Part shown: positions 5,593-62,671 of the stretch, piece by piece | Numbering within the stretch: position 1 is the first letter of the stretch | Layout of the letters: every line of letters begins with the position of its first letter | Origin: Candidatus Omnitrophota bacterium | GTDB taxonomy: Bacteria; Ratteibacteria; UBA8468; B48-G9; JAFGKM01 | DNA length: 63,304 bases | Reading direction: 5' to 3' | Assembly: GCA_023819375.1 (NCBI GenBank) | Contig: JAMWDI010000007.1 | Location: 1 to 63,304 of the forward strand | Position numbers and translations under genes: made by a program | Notes under the pieces: model-generated | The model's input: only the letters and a program-made list of their open reading frames with translations | Databases searched by the model: none | Told to the model about the DNA's origin: nothing

Positions 5593-7665
5593 ATGAAATG
5601 GTGGGAAAAGATGCCTTTAAGAATAATTGAGATAACAAATCCTTTTGATATTAAAAATCTATCTTTGGAGGAACAGGTAAAAATAATAAAAAAATTGAAA
5701 GGAAATGTAGTCCATTTTTCTTGTATGGGATTAACGAAAGAAAAAGATGATAGTGGATTTGATGATTTAGGATTTTATTTTGAAACAAGGCACGCAAAAA
5801 AGAAAAATCCAGATATTTTAAATGACTTTATTAAACTTGCTCATAAAAATAATATAAGAGTTATTGTATATTTTAATGTCCACTGGTATAAAAAGGAATT
5901 TGCAAAAAGGACTGGTTGGGGACAAATAAGAGAAGATGGTAGTTTAATAGATGATGTTTATTCAACAGGTAGTTCATTATGTATAAATAGTCCATATAGA
6001 AACTGGGTTTTTGAGATAGTTGAGGACTTATGCAAATATGAAATAGATGGTATTTTTTATGATGGCCCAATATTTTTTTCAAATACCTGTTATTGTGAAT
6101 GTTGTAAAAAATTGTTTAAAGAAAAGTATGGCCAAGAGATTCCAAAGAAGAGCGATTTTGAAAACCCATTGTGGAAAAAGTTAATAGAATTTCAAGTAGA
6201 ATCACTTGGAAGATTTTTAAAAGAAACAGATGAAATAATAAAAAGTAAAAGTTCTGAAATTTTATTTTATATGAATGGAAATTCAAACTGGCCCTTCTGG
6301 CCAACAGGAAGAGACAATAGAGAAATAATAAAATATACAGATATACTTGGAGCAGAAGGTGGATTTATATATTATGATTTAAATTTGACACCAATTTATA
6401 AACCAGGAATAACTGCAAAACTTCTAAATTCACAGTCAAATGGAAAACCAGTAGTTGTCTTTGATTGTGCAGGACATAAACCATGGAGTTGGTATTCATT
6501 GCCAGATAAGGAAGTTAAAATTTTGATGTATGAGACAATTAGTAATGGAGGAAATGCATGGACAGCAATATTTCCAGATGATATAAAAGAAAAAAGTGTA
6601 GTAGAAGGAATATCTGAGGTTAATAAGGCAATAAAGAAGAATAAAGAAGTTTACTTGAATACAAAATCACTTTCAAACATTGCTTTGCTTTATTCATTTG
6701 TATCAGCAAATTTCTATAAGGGTTCAATAGTGCCTTTAACCGATTTTACAAGAGAAATAAAAAGAGAAAAAATTGGAGATATTTATGAAGAATTTAATGG
6801 ATTTTATGAAATACTTGTAAGAAGTAAATTTCAGTTTGATGTTATAGATGAGGAAAATTTAAATGATTTATCAAAATATGAAGTTCTTATTCTTCCAAAT
6901 GTAACATGTTTGTCTAAAATAAATACTGATTTAATAAAAAAATTTGTTGAAAAAGGAGGAACTTTAATTTCTACGTTTGAAACATCATTATATGATGAGA
7001 GTGGTAAAAAACTTGAAAATTTTGCCCTCTCAGAAATTTTTGGGGTTAATTTTAAAGGAGAGATTTTTGGTCCAAACAATTGGGATTATATTTGTCCCAA
7101 TATAAATTCTGAATTTATAAGAGGAATTACAAAAAAATATCTTCCTTCAACTGAATATGGAATTAAGACAGAAATTAAAAATGGGAACGTCTTTATTTAC
7201 TTCTATGAAAAACTAAAAGGACGTTATGATGGAGTGCCTTCTCTTTCTAATATGCCTTTTGCTGTTTTTAATAAGTATGGTGAAGGAAATTCAATATATA
7301 TTAGTGGAACATTTGGCGGGACCTATTATAAATTTAGATTTCCAGAATATAGAATTTTACTGAAAAATATAATTGAGAAATTTTCAAAGAAACTTATTGA
7401 TATAAATGAAGAATGGGTAGAGGTTATATTAAGAGAAAAAGAAAATGAAATTTTTATTCATTTGATAAATTTAACGACAGGGCTTAAAAGGCCAATAACC
7501 TATATAAAAGAAATTGAAAACTTGAAAATTGATTTATTTTTCAATTTTAAATCTGCAAAAACAATTTTTTCAAATGAAAAAATCAAAATTGAAAAGAATA
7601 AAAATTATTACACTTTAATTCTTCCTATTTTAAAAGAATATGAAGTTATATGTTTAAAAAAGTGA
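5593..7665 (+). CDS. putative glycoside hydrolase with (β/α)8 barrel and GH42-type trimerisation-like domain
   Basis: 690 residues, no signal peptide. The N-terminal half reads as a TIM barrel: GNVVHFSCMG, RVIVYFNVHWYKKEF, and EIDGIFYDGPIF near residue 157, where the aspartate would sit at a barrel strand end. A zinc-like cysteine group CYCECCKKLF follows. The central part EVLILPNVTCLS with FVEKGGTLISTFETS (about 430-465) looks like the glutamine-amidotransferase-like trimerisation domain of GH42 β-galactosidases. Many such proteins are annotated only as hypothetical glycosyl hydrolases. Ribosome site AAAAAGGAGGG lies 8 bases before the ATG. The symporter follows closely. The substrate cannot be inferred. 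Confidence 0.6.
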   Translation: MKWWEKMPLRIIEITNPFDIKNLSLEEQVKIIKKLKGNVVHFSCMGLTKEKDDSGFDDLGFYFETRHAKKKNPDILNDFIKLAHKNNIRVIVYFNVHWYKKEFAKRTGWGQIREDGSLIDDVYSTGSSLCINSPYRNWVFEIVEDLCKYEIDGIFYDGPIFFSNTCYCECCKKLFKEKYGQEIPKKSDFENPLWKKLIEFQVESLGRFLKETDEIIKSKSSEILFYMNGNSNWPFWPTGRDNREIIKYTDILGAEGGFIYYDLNLTPIYKPGITAKLLNSQSNGKPVVVFDCAGHKPWSWYSLPDKEVKILMYETISNGGNAWTAIFPDDIKEKSVVEGISEVNKAIKKNKEVYLNTKSLSNIALLYSFVSANFYKGSIVPLTDFTREIKREKIGDIYEEFNGFYEILVRSKFQFDVIDEENLNDLSKYEVLILPNVTCLSKINTDLIKKFVEKGGTLISTFETSLYDESGKKLENFALSEIFGVNFKGEIFGPNNWDYICPNINSEFIRGITKKYLPSTEYGIKTEIKNGNVFIYFYEKLKGRYDGVPSLSNMPFAVFNKYGEGNSIYISGTFGGTYYKFRFPEYRILLKNIIEKFSKKLIDINEEWVEVILREKENEIFIHLINLTTGLKRPITYIKEIENLKIDLFFNFKSAKTIFSNEKIKIEKNKNYYTLILPILKEYEVICLKK

Positions 7666-48882: not shown

Positions 48883-48947
48883 ACACAAAGTAAGTGTAAA
48901 GGACAAAGAAGTCCTTTCTCCCAAAGTGGGGGAAAGGACTTTTATTT
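48883..48947 (+). ncRNA. dual-hairpin leader, ANTAR-type, ending in a terminator
   Basis: Hairpin 1: ACAC (48883-48886), loop AAAGTAA, GTGT (48894-48897). Box ACAAAGAAG at 48903-48911. Hairpin 2: arm 48910-48922, loop AAAGT(G), arm 48928-48940, then a T-rich tract. Drawn with a six-base loop AAAGTG (A1, G4), three G-C pairs close the loop and one U is bulged. The same plan recurs before nadE and amt. Dual six-base loops with A1 and G4 are what ANTAR-domain antiterminators recognise. Confidence 0.55.
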
Positions 48948-48950
48948 TTT
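48910..48950 (+). terminator. intrinsic terminator in the leader of the glutamate-synthase-like gene
   Basis: 13 pairs between 48910-48922 (AGTCCTTTCTCCC) and 48928-48940 (GGGGGAAAGGACT), with one G-U wobble and a five-base loop, followed by TTTATTTTTT at 48941-48950. It lies between promoter and gene, so it works as an attenuator or, less likely, ends transcription from hisC. Confidence 0.8.
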
Positions 48951-48971: not shown

Positions 48972-50543
48972 ATGGGATTTAGTAAATATAATGCAAGTGG
49001 AGTCAATTTTACAAGAAATAGGATTGAACCGTCTCCTATTTCTGGGATTTGTGTTACATGTCTTGATGGATGTCCAGGACCTTGTGAAATTGGAAAATCG
49101 GCAATAAGAGGAAGAGAATTGATTTATCCCCAACCTTTTGGAAAAGTCACTGCTGGTGGAGAAAAGAATTATCCAGTAGATTTATCTCATTTTAATATCC
49201 ATGGAACTTGTATTGGCGCTTATGGAATTGAAGCAGATCCAGATAAGGCAATTTTTCCAAATGTAGATATTCAAACTGAAGTGGGAAGAAATAATGATAT
49301 AAAACTAAAAGTCCCATTCTTTACAGGAGCACTTGGTTCTACTGATATTGCAAGAAATAACTGGGATCATTTTGCAGTTGGTGCTGCTATTTCAGGAACA
49401 ATTGTTGTAGTTGGAGAAAATGTATGTGGAATGGATCCAAAACTTGAATTGAAAAACGGAAAAGTTTATAAATCACCTGATATGGAACACAGAGTTAAAG
49501 TTTATAAAGAATGGTATGAAGGGTATGGCAATATTTTTGTTCAATTAAATGTTGAAGATACAAGACTTGGAGTTGCTGAATATGTAATTGAAAAATTGGG
49601 AGTAAATGCTATAGAGTTGAAATGGGGACAAGGAGCAAAAGATATAGGAGGAGAGGTTAAACTTCTTTCAATTGAAAGAGCAAAGCAACTTAAAGAAAGA
49701 GGATATATAGTTCAGCCAGATCCAGACGATCCTATTGTAAAAGAAGCATATAAAATTAAAGCAATAACTGAATTTGAAAGGCACTCTCGTCTTGGTATGG
49801 TTACAGAGGATGGATTTTTGAAAGAAGTTGAAAGATTGAGAAAAATTGGAGCAAAATATATTACATTAAAGACTGGTGCTTATAGGCCGAAAGATCTTGC
49901 ATTGGCTTTAAAACTCTCTTCTGAGGCTAAGATAGATTTATTAACAATTGATGCTGCTGGTGGAGGAACTGGAATGAGTCCGTGGAGAATGATGAATGAA
50001 TGGGGAATTCCCTTTGTTGAGTTAGTCTCATTAACCTATAAATATTGCCAGAGATTGAAAGAAAAGGGTAAATATGTTCCACCGATTGCTTTTGCAGGTG
50101 GAATTGCTTTTGAAGATCAGGTTTTTAAAGTTTTTGCTTTAGCAGCGCCATTTACAAAGGCAGTATGTCTTGGAAGAGCAACAATGACAGCAGGAATGGT
50201 TGCAAAAACAATTGGGGAAATGATTAAAAAAGGAAATATTCCGAAAGATTATAAAGAGCATGGAAATAAAATTGAACAGATTTTTATAAAAGGTGAAGAA
50301 TTATTGAAAAAATATGGTAAAGAAAGATTTAAAAAGATGCCAGTTGGTGCAATTGGAATCTATACTTATTATGATCGTCTCGCAGTTGGTTTAAAACAAC
50401 TTATGGCAGGTGCAAGAAAATTTGCATTAAAATATATCTCAAGAGACGACATATTTGCCTTGACAAAAGAAGCATCAGAAATATCGGGAATTCCTTTTGT
50501 TATGGATTCAGATAAAGAAAAAGTTGATGAAATATTGGGTTGA
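48972..50543 (+). CDS. glutamate-synthase-like FMN-binding protein (GltB2-type)
   Basis: 523 residues. The central and C-terminal parts are the FMN/[3Fe-4S] glutamate synthase domain: ELKWGQGAKDIGGEVK, YITLKTGAYRPKDLALAL, LLTIDAAGGGTGMSPWRMM, IAFAGGIAFEDQVFKVFALAA, GRATMTAGMVAK. The glutaminase domain of full GltB is absent. The N-terminus has CVTCLDGCPGPCEIGK, four cysteines that could hold an iron-sulfur cluster. Such short proteins occur in archaea and anaerobes, as the GltB core or as relatives with unknown activity. The ATG follows AAGGAGGG. The attenuated leader supports a role in nitrogen assimilation. Confidence 0.8.
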   Translation: MGFSKYNASGVNFTRNRIEPSPISGICVTCLDGCPGPCEIGKSAIRGRELIYPQPFGKVTAGGEKNYPVDLSHFNIHGTCIGAYGIEADPDKAIFPNVDIQTEVGRNNDIKLKVPFFTGALGSTDIARNNWDHFAVGAAISGTIVVVGENVCGMDPKLELKNGKVYKSPDMEHRVKVYKEWYEGYGNIFVQLNVEDTRLGVAEYVIEKLGVNAIELKWGQGAKDIGGEVKLLSIERAKQLKERGYIVQPDPDDPIVKEAYKIKAITEFERHSRLGMVTEDGFLKEVERLRKIGAKYITLKTGAYRPKDLALALKLSSEAKIDLLTIDAAGGGTGMSPWRMMNEWGIPFVELVSLTYKYCQRLKEKGKYVPPIAFAGGIAFEDQVFKVFALAAPFTKAVCLGRATMTAGMVAKTIGEMIKKGNIPKDYKEHGNKIEQIFIKGEELLKKYGKERFKKMPVGAIGIYTYYDRLAVGLKQLMAGARKFALKYISRDDIFALTKEASEISGIPFVMDSDKEKVDEILG

Positions 50544-56332: not shown

Positions 56333-57836
56333 TTTTGGTTCACAATATACACAACTTATAGCAAGAAGGATTAGAGAACTCAATATTTATTGTGAAATCT
56401 TTCATTTTACAACAAAATATGAAGAATTAAAAAATAAAAATGTAAGTGTTTTGATTCTATCAGGTGGTCCAGGTCATGTGGATAAAGAAAATTTAAGATT
56501 TGACGAAAAGATTTTTAAAAATAATGAATTTTATATTTTGGGCATTTGTTATGGAATGCAACTTATAGCAAAATATTTTGGGGGAAAAGTTTCTCATGGG
56601 AAGGTAAGAGAATATGGAAAAACAATTTTCTATCCAGATATTAATGAAGAAATTTTTGAGGGTTTAAAAAAAGAAACAATTGTTTGGATGAGCCATTGGG
56701 ATTATGTAAGTGAATTGCCAGAGAATTTCAAAGTGATCGGTAGAACAGATAATATTAAAATTGGTGCCTTTAGAGATAAAAATAAAAAAATTTATGGATT
56801 GCAATTTCATCCAGAAGTTATTCATACAAAAGAGGGAAAAAAAATTTTAAAAAATTTTCTCTTTAATATATGTAATTTAAAATCAGATTGGAATCCTGGC
56901 TCAATAATTAAAAAAATTAAGAATGAAATAAAAGAAAAAGTCAAAGATGAAAAAATTATATGTGCATTAAGTGGAGGAGTTGATTCTTCTGTTTTGTCTT
57001 TAATTTTAAATGATGTATGTGGTAAAAATTCTTTAAGCATATTTGTAAATAATGGACTTTTAAGAAAAAATGAACCAAAAGAGATAATAAATTTTTTTAA
57101 AGATAAAGTGAATTTTAAATATGTTGATGCTTCAAAATTATTTCTTGAAAGATTGAAAGATATAGAAGATCCAGAAGAAAAAAGGAAGATTATAGGTAAT
57201 ACATTCATTGAGGTTTTTGAGAAAGAAGGAAAAAGATTTGGTGCAGAATATCTTGCCCAAGGGACGTTATATCCTGATGTTATTGAAAGTACTTCTCCTT
57301 TTAAAGGACCATCGGTAAGAATAAAAACACATCACAATGTTGGGGGACTGCCTCAAAATATGAAATTTAAACTTATTGAACCATTTAAATTTTTATTTAA
57401 AGATGAAGTAAGAAAAATTGCAAAAAAAATGAATTTGCCTGATTTTATAATTAAAAGGCATCCATTTCCAGGACCTGGACTTGCAGTAAGGATAATAGGT
57501 AAAATAACGAAACAACAACTTGAAATATTGAAAGATGCTGATTTTATAGTTGAAGAAGAAATTAAAAAGGCAGGCATTTATGATAAAATTTGGCAGGCAT
57601 TTGCAGTTTTATTACCTATTAAAAGTGTTGGAATTATGGGAGATAAAAGAACTTATGAGAACGTTATTGCTATTAGAATTGTTAAAAGTGTAGATGGAAT
57701 GACTGCTGATTGGGTAAAAGTTCCATATAAAGTCCTTGAAAGAATATCAAACAGAATTGTTAATGAAGTAAAAGGAGTAAATAGAGTTGTATATGATATC
57801 ACTTCAAAACCACCTGCTACAATTGAATGGGAATAA
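56316..57836 (+). CDS. guaA: GMP synthase (glutamine-hydrolysing)
   Basis: 506 residues. The N-terminal amidotransferase has [37 protein letters not shown] (catalytic Cys near residue 76) and [10 protein letters not shown]. The ATP-pyrophosphatase domain has [14 protein letters not shown], and the C-terminus [11 protein letters not shown] and [11 protein letters not shown]. It converts XMP to GMP with glutamine. It is the last gene of purF-carA-carB1-carB2-guaA and faces the pyrG remnant tail to tail. Confidence 0.97.
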
Positions 57837-57838
57837 TT

Positions 57839-58540
<702 letters not shown>

Positions 58541-58569: not shown

Positions 58570-58694
58570 TTTCCTCAAAAATAGATCTATTTGAAATTAT
58601 GTTTCTAATAAGGCATTTTTCATTCCTTGATATATTTTTTTCCAGTTTTCTTTAAAATAGATGTTCGCTTTTGTCAATTCTATTTTTGAGGAAA
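58570..58694. repeat. 16-bp perfect inverted repeat enclosing 93 bp
   Basis: TTTCCTCAAAAATAGA (58570-58585) recurs as its exact reverse complement at 58679-58694. The 125-bp unit lies between the pyrG remnant and the nadE promoter and contains no gene. It could be a small non-autonomous transposon (MITE) or the stem of a long hairpin. The flanks show no clear target duplication. Confidence 0.5.
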
Positions 58695-58702
58695 AAGAAT
58701 TT

Positions 58703-58731
58703 TTGACAAAAATTGAAAATAGTTATAATAT
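58703..58731 (+). promoter_or_regulatory. nadE promoter
   Basis: TTGACA (58703-58708) with TAATAT at 17 bp (58726-58731) or TATAAT at 15 bp (58724-58729). Expected start near 58736, directly at the first leader hairpin. This places the promoter downstream of the in-frame ATG at 58661, which therefore cannot be the nadE start. Confidence 0.65.
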
Positions 58732-58735
58732 ATTT

Positions 58736-58802
58736 AAAGGAGAAAGGCCTCCTTTCAGACAAAGAAGTTCCTGCCCAAAGAAGGGAAAAAATCTAAAAGG
58801 AG
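58736..58802 (+). ncRNA. dual-hairpin ANTAR-type leader of nadE with possible Shine-Dalgarno sequestration
   Basis: Hairpin 1: AAAGGAG (58736-58742), six-base loop AAAGGC with A1 and G4, CTCCTTT (58749-58755), seven perfect pairs. Box ACAAAGAAG at 58759-58767. Hairpin 2: CCC (58774-58776), loop AAAGAA with A1 and G4, GGG (58783-58785). There is no U tract, so no terminator. The 3' arm of hairpin 1 is also exactly complementary to the Shine-Dalgarno AAAGGAG at 58796-58802, and UUCCU (58768-58772) can pair with AGGAG there. Confidence 0.6.
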
Positions 58803-58810
58803 AAAATATT

Positions 58811-60418
58811 ATGGAAAATATTAAAATTGCTTTATGTCAATTGAATTTTACTGTTGGAGATATTTTAGGTAATACAGAAAAAATTATAAAAGCGATTGAA
58901 TATGGAGAAAAAGAAAAATGTAATTTTATTTGTTTCCCTGAACTTGCTATAACAGGGTATCCACCAGAAGATTTATTATTAAAAGAAAAATTTATAGAAG
59001 ACAATTTGAAAAGTTTAGAGAAAATAAAAGAAAATGTAAAAAATTCTGTTGTAATTGTTGGCTTTGTAAACAGAGCAAATAATAAAATTTACAATTCTGC
59101 TGGAGTTATAGATAAAGGAGAAATAATTGGTATCTACAATAAAAAAATACTTCCAAACTATGGTGTATTTGATGAAAAAAGATATTTTGAAGAGGGAAAA
59201 GAAGATGGTTTTTTTGAAATTAATGGCATAAAGTTTGGAGTTACAATATGTGAGGATATATGGCATAAAGGAGGTCCTTATAAAAAACAGATTGAAAAGG
59301 GAGCAAAATATATTTTTGTTTTAAATGCTTCTCCATATCACTACAAGAAAATCAAAGAAAGAAAAAAAATTATAAAAGAAATATGTTTAAAATATGATGT
59401 TTTTTTATTTTACACAAATCTTGTTGGAGGCCAAGATGAACTTGTTTTTGATGGCCAGAGTTTGGTAGTTAATAATAAGGGAGAAATTATAAAAAAGGGA
59501 AAACTTTTTGAAGAGGAAATTTTAATATTTTCATTAAAGGATAAACCAATTGAGATTAAAGAGATTAATGAATGTGAGGAAATATATAAAGGGCTTGTTT
59601 GTGGCCTGAGGGATTATGTATATAAAAATAATTTTAAAAAAGTTGTTGTTGGATTAAGTGGTGGCATTGATTCTGCACTAACTGCAACAATTGCTGTTGA
59701 TGCACTTGGAAAAGAAAATGTTATTGGTGTTTTTATGCCTTCAAGGTTTTCATCTATTCAATCATATTTAGATGCAAAAAAACTTGCAGAAAATCTTGGA
59801 ATAGAATTTAAAGTAATATCAATTGAAAAAATTTTTAATTCTTATCTTGAGACATTAAAAGAAATATTTAAAGATAGACCATTTGATATCACAGAAGAAA
59901 ATATTCAAGCAAGAATAAGAGGAAATATTTTAATGGCTTTATCAAATAAATTTGGATATCTTGTTTTAACAACTGGAAATAAATCAGAAATGAGTGTTGG
60001 ATATGCAACTTTATATGGAGATATGGCCGGTGGTTTTGCTGTTATAAAAGATCTTTATAAAACAATGGTATATAAGATAGCAAAGTGGAGAAATTCAATA
60101 TCTTCGGTTATACCCGAAAATATATTCATAAAAGAACCAACAGCAGAATTGAGAGAAAATCAAAGAGATACAGATACATTGCCACCTTATGAAATTCTTG
60201 ATCAGATTTTGAAAGAATATATAGAGAATGATAAAAGTTGTGAAGAAATTATTGATATGGGTTTTGACAGAGAGATTGTTAAAAAAATTATAAAAATGGT
60301 TGATAAAAATGAATATAAAAGAAGGCAAGCACCTCCTGGAATTAAAATAACACCAAAGGCATTTGGTAAAGATAGAAGAATGCCAATTACAAATAAATAT
60401 TTAAAATGGAATATTTAG
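58811..60418 (+). CDS. nadE: glutamine-dependent NAD+ synthetase
   Basis: 535 residues from ATG 58811, eight bases after AAAGGAG. The longer frame from 58661 would translate the promoter and leader RNA and adds 50 residues with no family match. The N-terminal nitrilase-type glutaminase has the triad in FPELAITGYPPEDLL (Glu), YNKKILPNYGVFDE (Lys) and GVTICEDIWH (Cys). The C-terminal synthetase has VGLSGGIDSALTATIAVD and TTGNKSEMSVGYATLYGDM. It makes NAD from deamido-NAD using glutamine. The sigma-factor gene overlaps its end by 13 bases. Confidence 0.95.
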   Translation: MENIKIALCQLNFTVGDILGNTEKIIKAIEYGEKEKCNFICFPELAITGYPPEDLLLKEKFIEDNLKSLEKIKENVKNSVVIVGFVNRANNKIYNSAGVIDKGEIIGIYNKKILPNYGVFDEKRYFEEGKEDGFFEINGIKFGVTICEDIWHKGGPYKKQIEKGAKYIFVLNASPYHYKKIKERKKIIKEICLKYDVFLFYTNLVGGQDELVFDGQSLVVNNKGEIIKKGKLFEEEILIFSLKDKPIEIKEINECEEIYKGLVCGLRDYVYKNNFKKVVVGLSGGIDSALTATIAVDALGKENVIGVFMPSRFSSIQSYLDAKKLAENLGIEFKVISIEKIFNSYLETLKEIFKDRPFDITEENIQARIRGNILMALSNKFGYLVLTTGNKSEMSVGYATLYGDMAGGFAVIKDLYKTMVYKIAKWRNSISSVIPENIFIKEPTAELRENQRDTDTLPPYEILDQILKEYIENDKSCEEIIDMGFDREIVKKIIKMVDKNEYKRRQAPPGIKITPKAFGKDRRMPITNKYLKWNI

Positions 60419-60891
60419 AACTTATCAAAAAATTAAAAAGTAAATTAGAGCATATGGTAAAAGGGCTAAAAAATGAGGGAGATGGTTTTGATATAGATGA
60501 TTGTCTCCAAGAAATTTACTTATATTTATGGATTGAATGGAATAATGGAAATATTAAAGAAAAAAATGAAAGTTATATTTTAAAAAGTTGTTATTATCAC
60601 CTGAAAAATTTTTTAAGAAAAAATAAATCACTTAAATTTATCAGTTTGGAAGAAATAATGGAAAATAATAGTTTGTTTGATGTTCCTAACAATAGTCAAA
60701 ATTCATACTTAATAGACTTTGAAAAAATGTATAACATATTAAACGAAAGAGAAAAAAAAGTTGTAAATTTTATAATGGCTGGATATACAATAAGAGAAAT
60801 TGGGAAAAATTTAGGAATTTCTCACGTTATGGTTTTAAAAATTATAAAAAAAATCAGAAGCAAGATAAGTAATTTAAAAATAGAAATTTAA
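60406..60891 (+). CDS. small sigma-70 family (ECF-like) RNA polymerase sigma factor
   Basis: 161 residues. The N-terminal half has FDIDDCLQEIYLYLWIEW (about 26-43), the region 2 helix that binds core polymerase, and NESYILKSCYYHLKNFLRKN. The C-terminal half is region 4: LNEREKKVVNFIMAGYTIRE and IGKNLGISHVMVLKIIKKIR, a helix-turn-helix reading the -35 element. The linker is short and there is no anti-sigma gene beside it. The ATG lies inside nadE, so both are made from one mRNA; amt follows after its own attenuated leader. It may direct transcription of nitrogen genes, by context only. Confidence 0.75.
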   Translation: MEYLELIKKLKSKLEHMVKGLKNEGDGFDIDDCLQEIYLYLWIEWNNGNIKEKNESYILKSCYYHLKNFLRKNKSLKFISLEEIMENNSLFDVPNNSQNSYLIDFEKMYNILNEREKKVVNFIMAGYTIREIGKNLGISHVMVLKIIKKIRSKISNLKIEI

Positions 60892-60936: not shown

Positions 60937-61008
60937 GATCCGAAGTAGGGTCAAAAAAAGAAAAACAAAGGCGTTTTCCCCAAGGCCGGGAAAGCGCCTT
61001 TTTTATTT
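60937..61008 (+). ncRNA. dual-hairpin ANTAR-type leader of amt
   Basis: Hairpin 1: GATCC (60937-60941), loop GAAGTA with G4, GGGTC (60948-60952), five pairs including one wobble. Box ACAAAGGCG at 60965-60973. Hairpin 2: arm 60970-60981, six-base loop AAGGCC (A1, G4), arm 60988-60998, with three G-C closing pairs and one bulged C, then a T tract. The only departure from the A1/G4 rule is G at loop position 1 of hairpin 1. Confidence 0.55.
60970..61008 (+). terminator. intrinsic terminator in the amt leader
   Basis: GGCGTTTTCCC (60970-60980) pairs with GGGAAAGCGCC (60988-60998) over 11 positions with one wobble, followed by TTTTTTATTT. The ATG of amt is at 61022, so transcription must pass this hairpin to express amt. 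Confidence 0.8.
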
Positions 61009-61021
61009 TAAGAAGAGAAAA

Positions 61022-62320
61022 ATGGATATACAAGTAATTATAAATACTATCTGGGTTCTTGTAACTGCAAAACTTGTATTTTTTATGAATCTTGGTTTTG
61101 CAATGGTAGAAAGTGGTTTTACAAGAACAAAGAATACAACAAATATTCTATCAAAGAACTTTATTGTTTTTGCAATTGCCTCTCTGGCTTATTTATTCCT
61201 TGGATGGGGTTTAATGTTTGGAGATGGAAATGGATTTATTGGATTAAAAGGCCTATTTTTATTACAGGGACCAGATAATTCTCCTTTAACAGGAAATGAT
61301 TATAGAGGGGTTTATTCTGCATTGTCCTGGGTTAAAGTTCCTTTATATGCAAAATTCTTTTTTCAACTCGCTTTTTGTGGAACAGCAGCGACAATTGTTT
61401 CAGGTGCAGTTGCAGAAAGAATTAAGTATCTCTCCTTTATTATCTTTAGTTTTTTAATGTGTATGTTTATATATCCTGTTGTCGGACATTGGGTGTGGGG
61501 AGGGGGCTGGCTTGCAAAAATTGGAATGCTTGACTTTGCAGGTTCTACAGTTGTCCATTCAGTTGGTGGATGGGCTGCATTGGCAGGGATTTTATTACTA
61601 GGGCCGCGTTTTGGAAAATATGAAAATGGTAAAACCAATATTATTCCAGGTCATAGTTTACCACTTGCAACTATAGGAACATTTGTTTTATGGTTTGGTT
61701 GGTTTGGATTTAATCCAGGCTCTACAATGACTGCAGATCCTGTTGCAATAAGCCACATAGTAGTTACAACAAATACAGCGGCTGCAACTTCAATAATTAG
61801 TTCTACTATAACTTCTTATATTTTACTTGGTAAGCCAGACCTTGGTATGACTTTAAATGGCTGTCTTGCAGGATTAGTTGCTATAACTGCTCCTTGTGCA
61901 TTTGTAACAGTTGGTGCTTCTATATTTATAGGGATTATTGCTGGAATTTTGGTTGTTCTATCTGTTTTATTTTTTGACAAAATAAAAATTGATGATCCAG
62001 TTGGAGCCCTTTCAGTTCATCTTATAAACGGAATCTTTGGAACTATATCTGTTGGTCTTTTTGCAAAAGATAAAATAGCAGGGATAAGTACAGGGAATGG
62101 TTTGTTTTATGGAGGAGGTGTTAAACTTTTAAAAATACAACTTCTTGGTGTTGTTTCTGTTGGTATTTTTGTTTTCACACTTTCTTTAATTTTCTGGTAT
62201 TTTATCAAAAAAACTATTGGAATAAGAGTTAGTTTAAGAGAAGAAATAGAAGGACTTGACATAGGAGAACATGGAAATATTGCTTATCCTGAATTTTACA
62301 TTAAAAAAACATATTTTTGA
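61022..62320 (+). CDS. amt: ammonium transporter Amt
   Basis: 432 residues, eleven predicted helices. Signatures: FMNLGFAMVESGFTRTKNT, FQLAFCGTAATIVSGAVAER, the first pore histidine in STVVHSVGGWAAL (about residue 180) and the second in GALSVHLINGIFGT near residue 330, forming the twin-His pair. No cleavable signal peptide is obvious. It takes up ammonium, is gated by the P-II protein of the next gene, and is controlled by the upstream terminator. Confidence 0.95.
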   Translation: MDIQVIINTIWVLVTAKLVFFMNLGFAMVESGFTRTKNTTNILSKNFIVFAIASLAYLFLGWGLMFGDGNGFIGLKGLFLLQGPDNSPLTGNDYRGVYSALSWVKVPLYAKFFFQLAFCGTAATIVSGAVAERIKYLSFIIFSFLMCMFIYPVVGHWVWGGGWLAKIGMLDFAGSTVVHSVGGWAALAGILLLGPRFGKYENGKTNIIPGHSLPLATIGTFVLWFGWFGFNPGSTMTADPVAISHIVVTTNTAAATSIISSTITSYILLGKPDLGMTLNGCLAGLVAITAPCAFVTVGASIFIGIIAGILVVLSVLFFDKIKIDDPVGALSVHLINGIFGTISVGLFAKDKIAGISTGNGLFYGGGVKLLKIQLLGVVSVGIFVFTLSLIFWYFIKKTIGIRVSLREEIEGLDIGEHGNIAYPEFYIKKTYF

Positions 62321-62332
62321 AAAGGAGAAATT

Positions 62333-62671
62333 ATGAAAAAAATTGAAGCAATAATAAGACCTGAATTTTTACTTAAAATTAAAAAAGAACTTGAAAAAAT
62401 TGGACATTTTGGTTTGACTATCACTGATGTAGAAGGTTGCGGAAAACAAGGTGGAATAATTCGTAATTGGAGAGGCGAAAAATATAAAGTTGAATTTGTT
62501 GAAAAGGTCAAGTTAGAGATTATTGCTAAAGATATTGATGTGGAAAAGATAGTAAAAATTATAATAAATACAGCAAGAACAGGAGAAATTGGAGATGGGA
62601 AAATCTTTATTTTACCTGTTGAAAGTGTGATAAGAATAAGAACGGGAGAGGAAGGAGATGCAGCAATATAA
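62333..62671 (+). CDS. glnB: nitrogen regulatory protein P-II
   Basis: 112 residues. KKIEAIIRPEFLLKIKKEL at the N-terminus, the T-loop RNWRGEKYKVEFVEKVKLE with the uridylylation-type tyrosine (about residue 51), and the B/C-loop signature TARTGEIGDGKIFILPVES. P-II senses 2-oxoglutarate, ATP/ADP and controls Amt, GlnA or regulators. Being next to amt it is of GlnK type. AAAAGGAG precedes the ATG. Confidence 0.95.
   Translation: MKKIEAIIRPEFLLKIKKELEKIGHFGLTITDVEGCGKQGGIIRNWRGEKYKVEFVEKVKLEIIAKDIDVEKIVKIIINTARTGEIGDGKIFILPVESVIRIRTGEEGDAAI

Follow-up and report, generated by a model that had tools for sequence, protein, structure and literature searches.

ANTAR-domain proteins act on RNAs made of dual hairpins, in which the first and fourth loop positions are conserved (Ramesh et al. 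2012, PMC3369931). In the eut RNAs of E. faecalis the linker between the hairpins measures 5-12 nt, and linkers of 3 or 14 nt impair the element (PMC3369931). The binding unit has since been revised to a single hexaloop (Walshe et al. 2022, PMC8934654). Nitrogen genes are among the ANTAR targets, including those for PII, ammonium transporters and glutamate synthase (PMC3369931). An earlier note on the DNA studied here, made from its letters, stated that known ANTAR elements overlap terminators, which is incomplete: a 2012 study already predicted ribosome-site elements and suggested translational versions (PMC3369931), and in actinobacteria the elements often overlap the ribosome binding site (RBS), with repression shown in mycobacteria (PMC8164766). 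NadE itself is connected to PII through protein-level control (Santos et al. 2020, PMC7196632). Among the matches listed from the open-access literature, none describes nadE as a target of ANTAR regulation.

We analyzed the nadE leader of an uncultured Omnitrophota bacterium, in a genome of 1.73 Mb in 13 contigs (G000), of which one contig (C4), 63,304 nucleotides long, is the window referred to below. The gene nadE (58811-60418, + strand) encodes a glutamine-dependent NAD synthetase of 535 aa with a CN_hydrolase domain (E 7e-28) and an NAD_synthase domain (E 2e-83). The start of the longest open reading frame, 58661, was dropped in favor of 58811, where homology begins and which has a Shine-Dalgarno (SD) sequence at 58796. 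A sigma-70-like promoter (TTGACA-17 nt-TAATAT, 58703-58731, + strand) matches the consensus at 10/12 positions and presumably starts the mRNA close to the first hairpin described below. TTGACA-like boxes are also present upstream of the nadE leaders of two species of the same genus, G005 and G003. Between guaA and nadE, a frame resembling CTP synthase (pyrG), identified by eye, occupies 57836-58540 (- strand) and is broken into short open reading frames, of which 58136-58432 is the only one listed, suggesting either a pseudogene or a misassembly. On the other side, a small sigma-factor-like protein below the Pfam cut-offs is encoded at 60406-60891 (+ strand), overlapping the 3' end of nadE. 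A sigma-factor-like gene also lies between nadE and amtB in G003 (L055, about 5600-6080), where the order of nadE, this gene and the amtB element is the same.

The nadE leader contains three tandem hexaloop hairpins on the + strand. Hairpin 1 (HP1, AAAGGAG-AAAGGC-CTCCTTT, 58736-58755) has a 7-bp stem, hairpin 2 (HP2, GAC-AAAGAA-GTT, 58758-58769) closes with the AC/GU pairs described for P1 of eut, and hairpin 3 (HP3, CCC-AAAGAA-GGG, 58774-58785) has a 3-bp stem. All three loops (AAAGGC, AAAGAA and AAAGAA) carry A at position 1 and G at position 4 (A1/G4). The earlier note had described two A1/G4 hairpins flanking a box; both hairpins, HP1 and HP3, were confirmed, and the box ACAAAGAAG turned out to be HP2 itself, a third A1/G4 hexaloop hairpin and no linker. 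The linkers between full stems are 2 nt (HP1-HP2) and 4 nt (HP2-HP3), shorter than in eut and comparable to those of the sister elements (2 and 1 nt). The SD-like AAAGGAG in HP1 raised the idea of a leader peptide, which we rejected, as no ATG lies between this sequence and the nadE ATG. A scan of the window with Rfam at the gathering score gave no family matches.

Dual A1/G4 hexaloops with a combined stem score of at least 24 occur 6 times in the window and 0-1 times in shuffles, and the hexaloops of the nadE leader exceed chance. Two sister elements with overlapping terminators lie on the + strand of the same window. The first (48898-48950, fold z -6.3) is located upstream of a glutamate-synthase-like gene (48972-50543), and the second (60962-61007, fold z -4.7) upstream of amtB (61022-62320) and glnK (62333-62671). 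In both leaders the terminator fold is the minimum-free-energy (MFE) structure. A dual-hexaloop covariance model ranked these three leaders as the best places in the genome, with E-values of 0.0015 for the glutamate-synthase-like gene, 0.0029 for nadE and 0.9 for amtB; the model was seeded with 13 elements including the window's own, and as nadE was a seed its E-value is optimistic. The amtB element is weak by score alone and is kept in G003. Pairing in the two stems reaches 98% across 18 aligned elements, and both-side changes occur at all 7 pairs; this covariation figure leans in the model's favor, since the alignment had been fitted to this model, and both to the structure.

Extra hexaloop-like hairpins were observed 5' of the dual elements at 48884-48896 (glutamate-synthase-like gene) and 60937-60952 (amtB). 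Their equivalents in G003 (L108 and L055) are TTAC-AAAGAA-GTAA and AATCC-AAAGTA-GGATT, which suggests that triple-hexaloop elements may occur in this lineage. At four further loci (L116 and L117 at amtB, L046 and L048 at glutamate-synthase-like genes), GGAC-AAAGAA-GTCC is followed by a second hexaloop, with neither a clear terminator nor clear SD complementarity.

The genome encodes a single ANTAR domain, located within a GAF-ANTAR protein of 245 aa (G000:C3). We aligned it to EutV (6wsh) at residues reported to contact the hexaloop or to be required for it (PMC8934654), using a chain-index offset of 2 deduced from residue identities. Eight of the ten residues are kept (R142, K143, K147, K149, E160, Y164, M172 and R175), and two are replaced (N173 by D, R177 by S). 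No ANTAR gene was found in the G005 assembly, which is 82% complete.

Both same-genus species keep HP1 and HP2 in their nadE leaders. The G005 leader reads AAGGAG-AAAGAA-CTCCTT CC GAAC-AAAGTA-GTTC, and that of G003 reads GAG-AATGTC-CTC ACCC GAAC-AAAGAA-GTTC, with a weaker HP1 than in G005. In both, HP2 is a perfect 4-bp stem (GAAC-AAAGNA-GTTC), and HP3 is degenerate, with a hexaloop and only 2 bp.

Beyond the genus, we found ANTAR elements with terminators on nadE at no fewer than 12 other loci, mostly in Omnitrophota (L057, L064, L065, L067, L068, L070, L079, L093, L095, L100, L103 and L019, the last in the same order); three of these, L068, L070 and L079, carry depositor labels of Deltaproteobacteria or Syntrophus. 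The class- and phylum-wide searches covered 35 genomes with at most 150 candidates scored in each, missed known elements (e.g. in G017) and do not amount to a census. All 12 leaders fold into the terminator, the hexaloop hairpin supplying its 3' arm as the terminator's 5' arm. In their first loops G4 is nearly always kept and A1 less so (TAAGGC, GAGGGC). A stringent rule requiring hexaloops and a terminator returned 10 places in 530 kb, among them 5 nadE leaders and 1 amtB leader, compared with 2 in 376 kb of shuffled sequence. At no fewer than 13 loci (L059-L061, L064-L068, L070, L093, L100, L102 and L103), a GAF-ANTAR gene is the immediate upstream neighbor of nadE. In many nadE leaders, including those of genus g7, the stretch examined contains no element, and ANTAR control of nadE is therefore not universal. 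At L064:6382, L103:6410 and possibly L095:7233, a separate ANTAR element with a terminator accompanies a gene downstream of nadE for a protein of roughly 250 aa.

Taken together, the nadE leader is very probably an ANTAR-protein target RNA, as had been proposed from its two loops, because terminator-type sister elements, a single GAF-ANTAR protein with kept contact residues, conservation within the genus and ANTAR-nadE gene pairs all point to it. The stems are short, and the whole leader folds no more stably than shuffles (z -0.4), a value not used as evidence here; both would fit chance hairpins in an AT-rich leader that have no ANTAR function. This reading is contradicted by the hexaloop conservation, the terminator-type sisters, the ANTAR-nadE gene pair and the covariation, and we regard it as very improbable. 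By sequence-based evidence, NAD synthetase would thus belong to the ANTAR nitrogen regulon, given the terminator-type nadE elements and the GAF-ANTAR/nadE gene pairs elsewhere.

The nadE leader of the window lacks the expression platform of its sisters. No intrinsic terminator was found in 58600-58850, in agreement with the earlier note, or in the nadE leaders of G005 and G003. In all three species an A-rich, not U-rich, stretch follows HP3, and then the SD sequence. Since nearly all other nadE elements found work by terminators, we considered transcription attenuation by an unrecognized terminator, for example a Rho-dependent one, or by a terminator inside nadE. The lack of an intrinsic terminator and of a U-rich stretch in three species argues against attenuation, which we consider improbable. 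Control of translation rather than of termination, the distinction drawn from the window alone, is the probable mode for this leader, because all three same-genus leaders (3/3) lack a terminator and keep the complementarity between the HP1 3' arm and the SD sequence. Judging from the leaders compared, this genus has apparently replaced termination by translation initiation as the step at which nadE is controlled.

The 3' arm of HP1, the anti-SD CTCCTTT (58749-58755, + strand), is exactly complementary over 7 nt to the nadE SD sequence AAAGGAG (58796-58802, + strand), which serves the ATG at 58811, just as had been claimed. Among the 24 window genes with an SD sequence that were examined, nadE has the longest anti-SD match. 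About 11% of shuffled leaders match the complementarity of nadE in G000 (0.11), and the corresponding fractions are 0.09 in G005, 0.28 in G003, 0.10 in G026 and 0.015 in G016, scores that are non-independent because the species are related. On its own, the SD complementarity is only modestly unusual. It spans 7, 6 and 5 nt in the nadE leaders of G000, G005 and G003; homologues with neither the A1/G4 loops nor SD complementarity, which the earlier note had named as evidence against its idea, were not what we found among the nadE leaders. The glutamate-synthase-like leaders of two species in genus g7 (G016 and G026) have three hexaloops and no terminator, and their HP1 arms are complementary to the SD sequence over 7 and 6 nt.

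This complementarity also bears on a reading in which ANTAR acts via mRNA stability, the bound protein shielding HP1 at the 5' end from RNases or exposing it to them. The promoter sets the 5' end a few bases from HP1, likewise in G005, as such a role would predict. Stability control leaves the HP1 arm-SD complementarity in three species unexplained, which is weak evidence against it, and we judge it improbable, if slightly less so than attenuation.

We evaluated the competing structures by folding. It had been expected that the local HP1 should simply win over the distant pairing. This expectation failed: the sequestered fold is the MFE structure of 58736-58830, and on a longer stretch of G000 the HP1 fold is better by 0.6 kcal/mol. 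At 37 C, no more than about 2 kcal/mol separates the HP1 state from the sequestered one in G000 and G003, the difference varying with the choice of 3' end; in G000 the two come within about 1 kcal/mol. In G005, HP1 dominates and the SD sequence is not sequestered by the HP1 arm; relative to the ensemble at 37 C, the anti-SD/SD helix is less favorable by 2.8-8.2 kcal/mol. Constraint folding, in which hairpins were forced, predicted that HP1 lowers the opening cost of the SD sequence little in G000 and G005. Forcing HP2 lowers this cost in G005 and G003, and UUCCU at the end of HP2 is a second CU-rich segment able to pair with the SD sequence. The constraint folding results on whether hexaloop formation would free the SD sequence are thus mixed. 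We found no compensatory change in the anti-SD/SD helix across the three closely related species.

An ANTAR dimer on HP2 and HP3 could instead block the 30S subunit and act as a translational repressor, the HP1/SD complementarity being incidental. HP3 ends at 58785 and the SD sequence starts at 58796, with 10 nt between them, and actinobacterial elements often overlap the ribosome site, mycobacterial ones repressing translation (PMC8164766). The modest unusualness of the SD complementarity also fits repression. However, HP3 is poorly kept in relatives, and the nadE leaders of related lineages are of the antitermination form, in which binding turns the gene on, so that a change of sign, with gene and regulator unchanged, would be less economical. 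We consider a repressor unlikely.

Our preferred reading is that the one GAF-ANTAR protein of the cell binds the nadE leader, which governs translation initiation. When the protein is not active, the CU-rich 3' arm of HP1 would leave its hairpin and pair with the SD sequence, lowering initiation. An active ANTAR dimer would grip the A1/G4 hexaloops, HP1 would stay closed and the SD sequence would be free. In this way nadE may be turned on along with the glutamate-synthase-like and amtB-glnK operons, in whose leaders the hexaloops would block terminators. We infer the binding, the strand exchange and a signal sensed by the GAF domain, and the polarity, on when bound, would follow by analogy with the antiterminator versions. 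The specific step of SD release, with HP1 held closed by the protein as the earlier note had suggested, was borne out in part: the energies in G000 and G003 are near balance, and those in G005 do not favor sequestration. We hold this step tentatively, at slightly less than an even chance. For the reading as a whole, in which ANTAR activates translation via an SD-sequestering hairpin and related lineages wire nadE by a terminator or a ribosome-site switch, we estimate a probability of roughly 0.4.

If this holds, RBS release would join antitermination and RBS blocking as a mode of ANTAR regulation. NAD synthesis would also become part of the ANTAR nitrogen regulon in an uncultured phylum, and the recurrent GAF-ANTAR/nadE gene pair hints at a main duty of the regulator. 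The nadE leaders may further amount to a natural experiment that pairs a single protein-RNA recognition module with two expression platforms on the same gene.

The closest described systems are the ANTAR antiterminator RNAs (eut, nasF and amiE; PMC3369931, PMC8934654). They share with the nadE leader tandem small hexaloop hairpins with A1/G4, AC/GU closing pairs on one hairpin and a conserved ANTAR protein; their linkers are short as well, if longer in eut than in nadE, and their off state uses the 3' arm of a hexaloop hairpin, as that of nadE would. In the nadE leader, however, this alternative structure would engage the ribosome site and not a terminator, there are three hexaloops rather than two, and the target gene is nadE. 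Translational ANTAR RNAs have already been predicted or shown in other phyla. Those of actinobacteria and mycobacteria (PMC8164766) likewise adjoin the ribosome site without a terminator, but they contain the RBS or start codon and binding represses, whereas the SD sequence of nadE lies outside the element and activation is the likely outcome. Finally, the PII control of NadE (PMC7196632) also ties NAD synthesis to nitrogen status, and nadE lies near glnK and amtB here. That control is a protein-protein interaction acting on enzyme activity, whereas the nadE leader would control expression at the RNA level.
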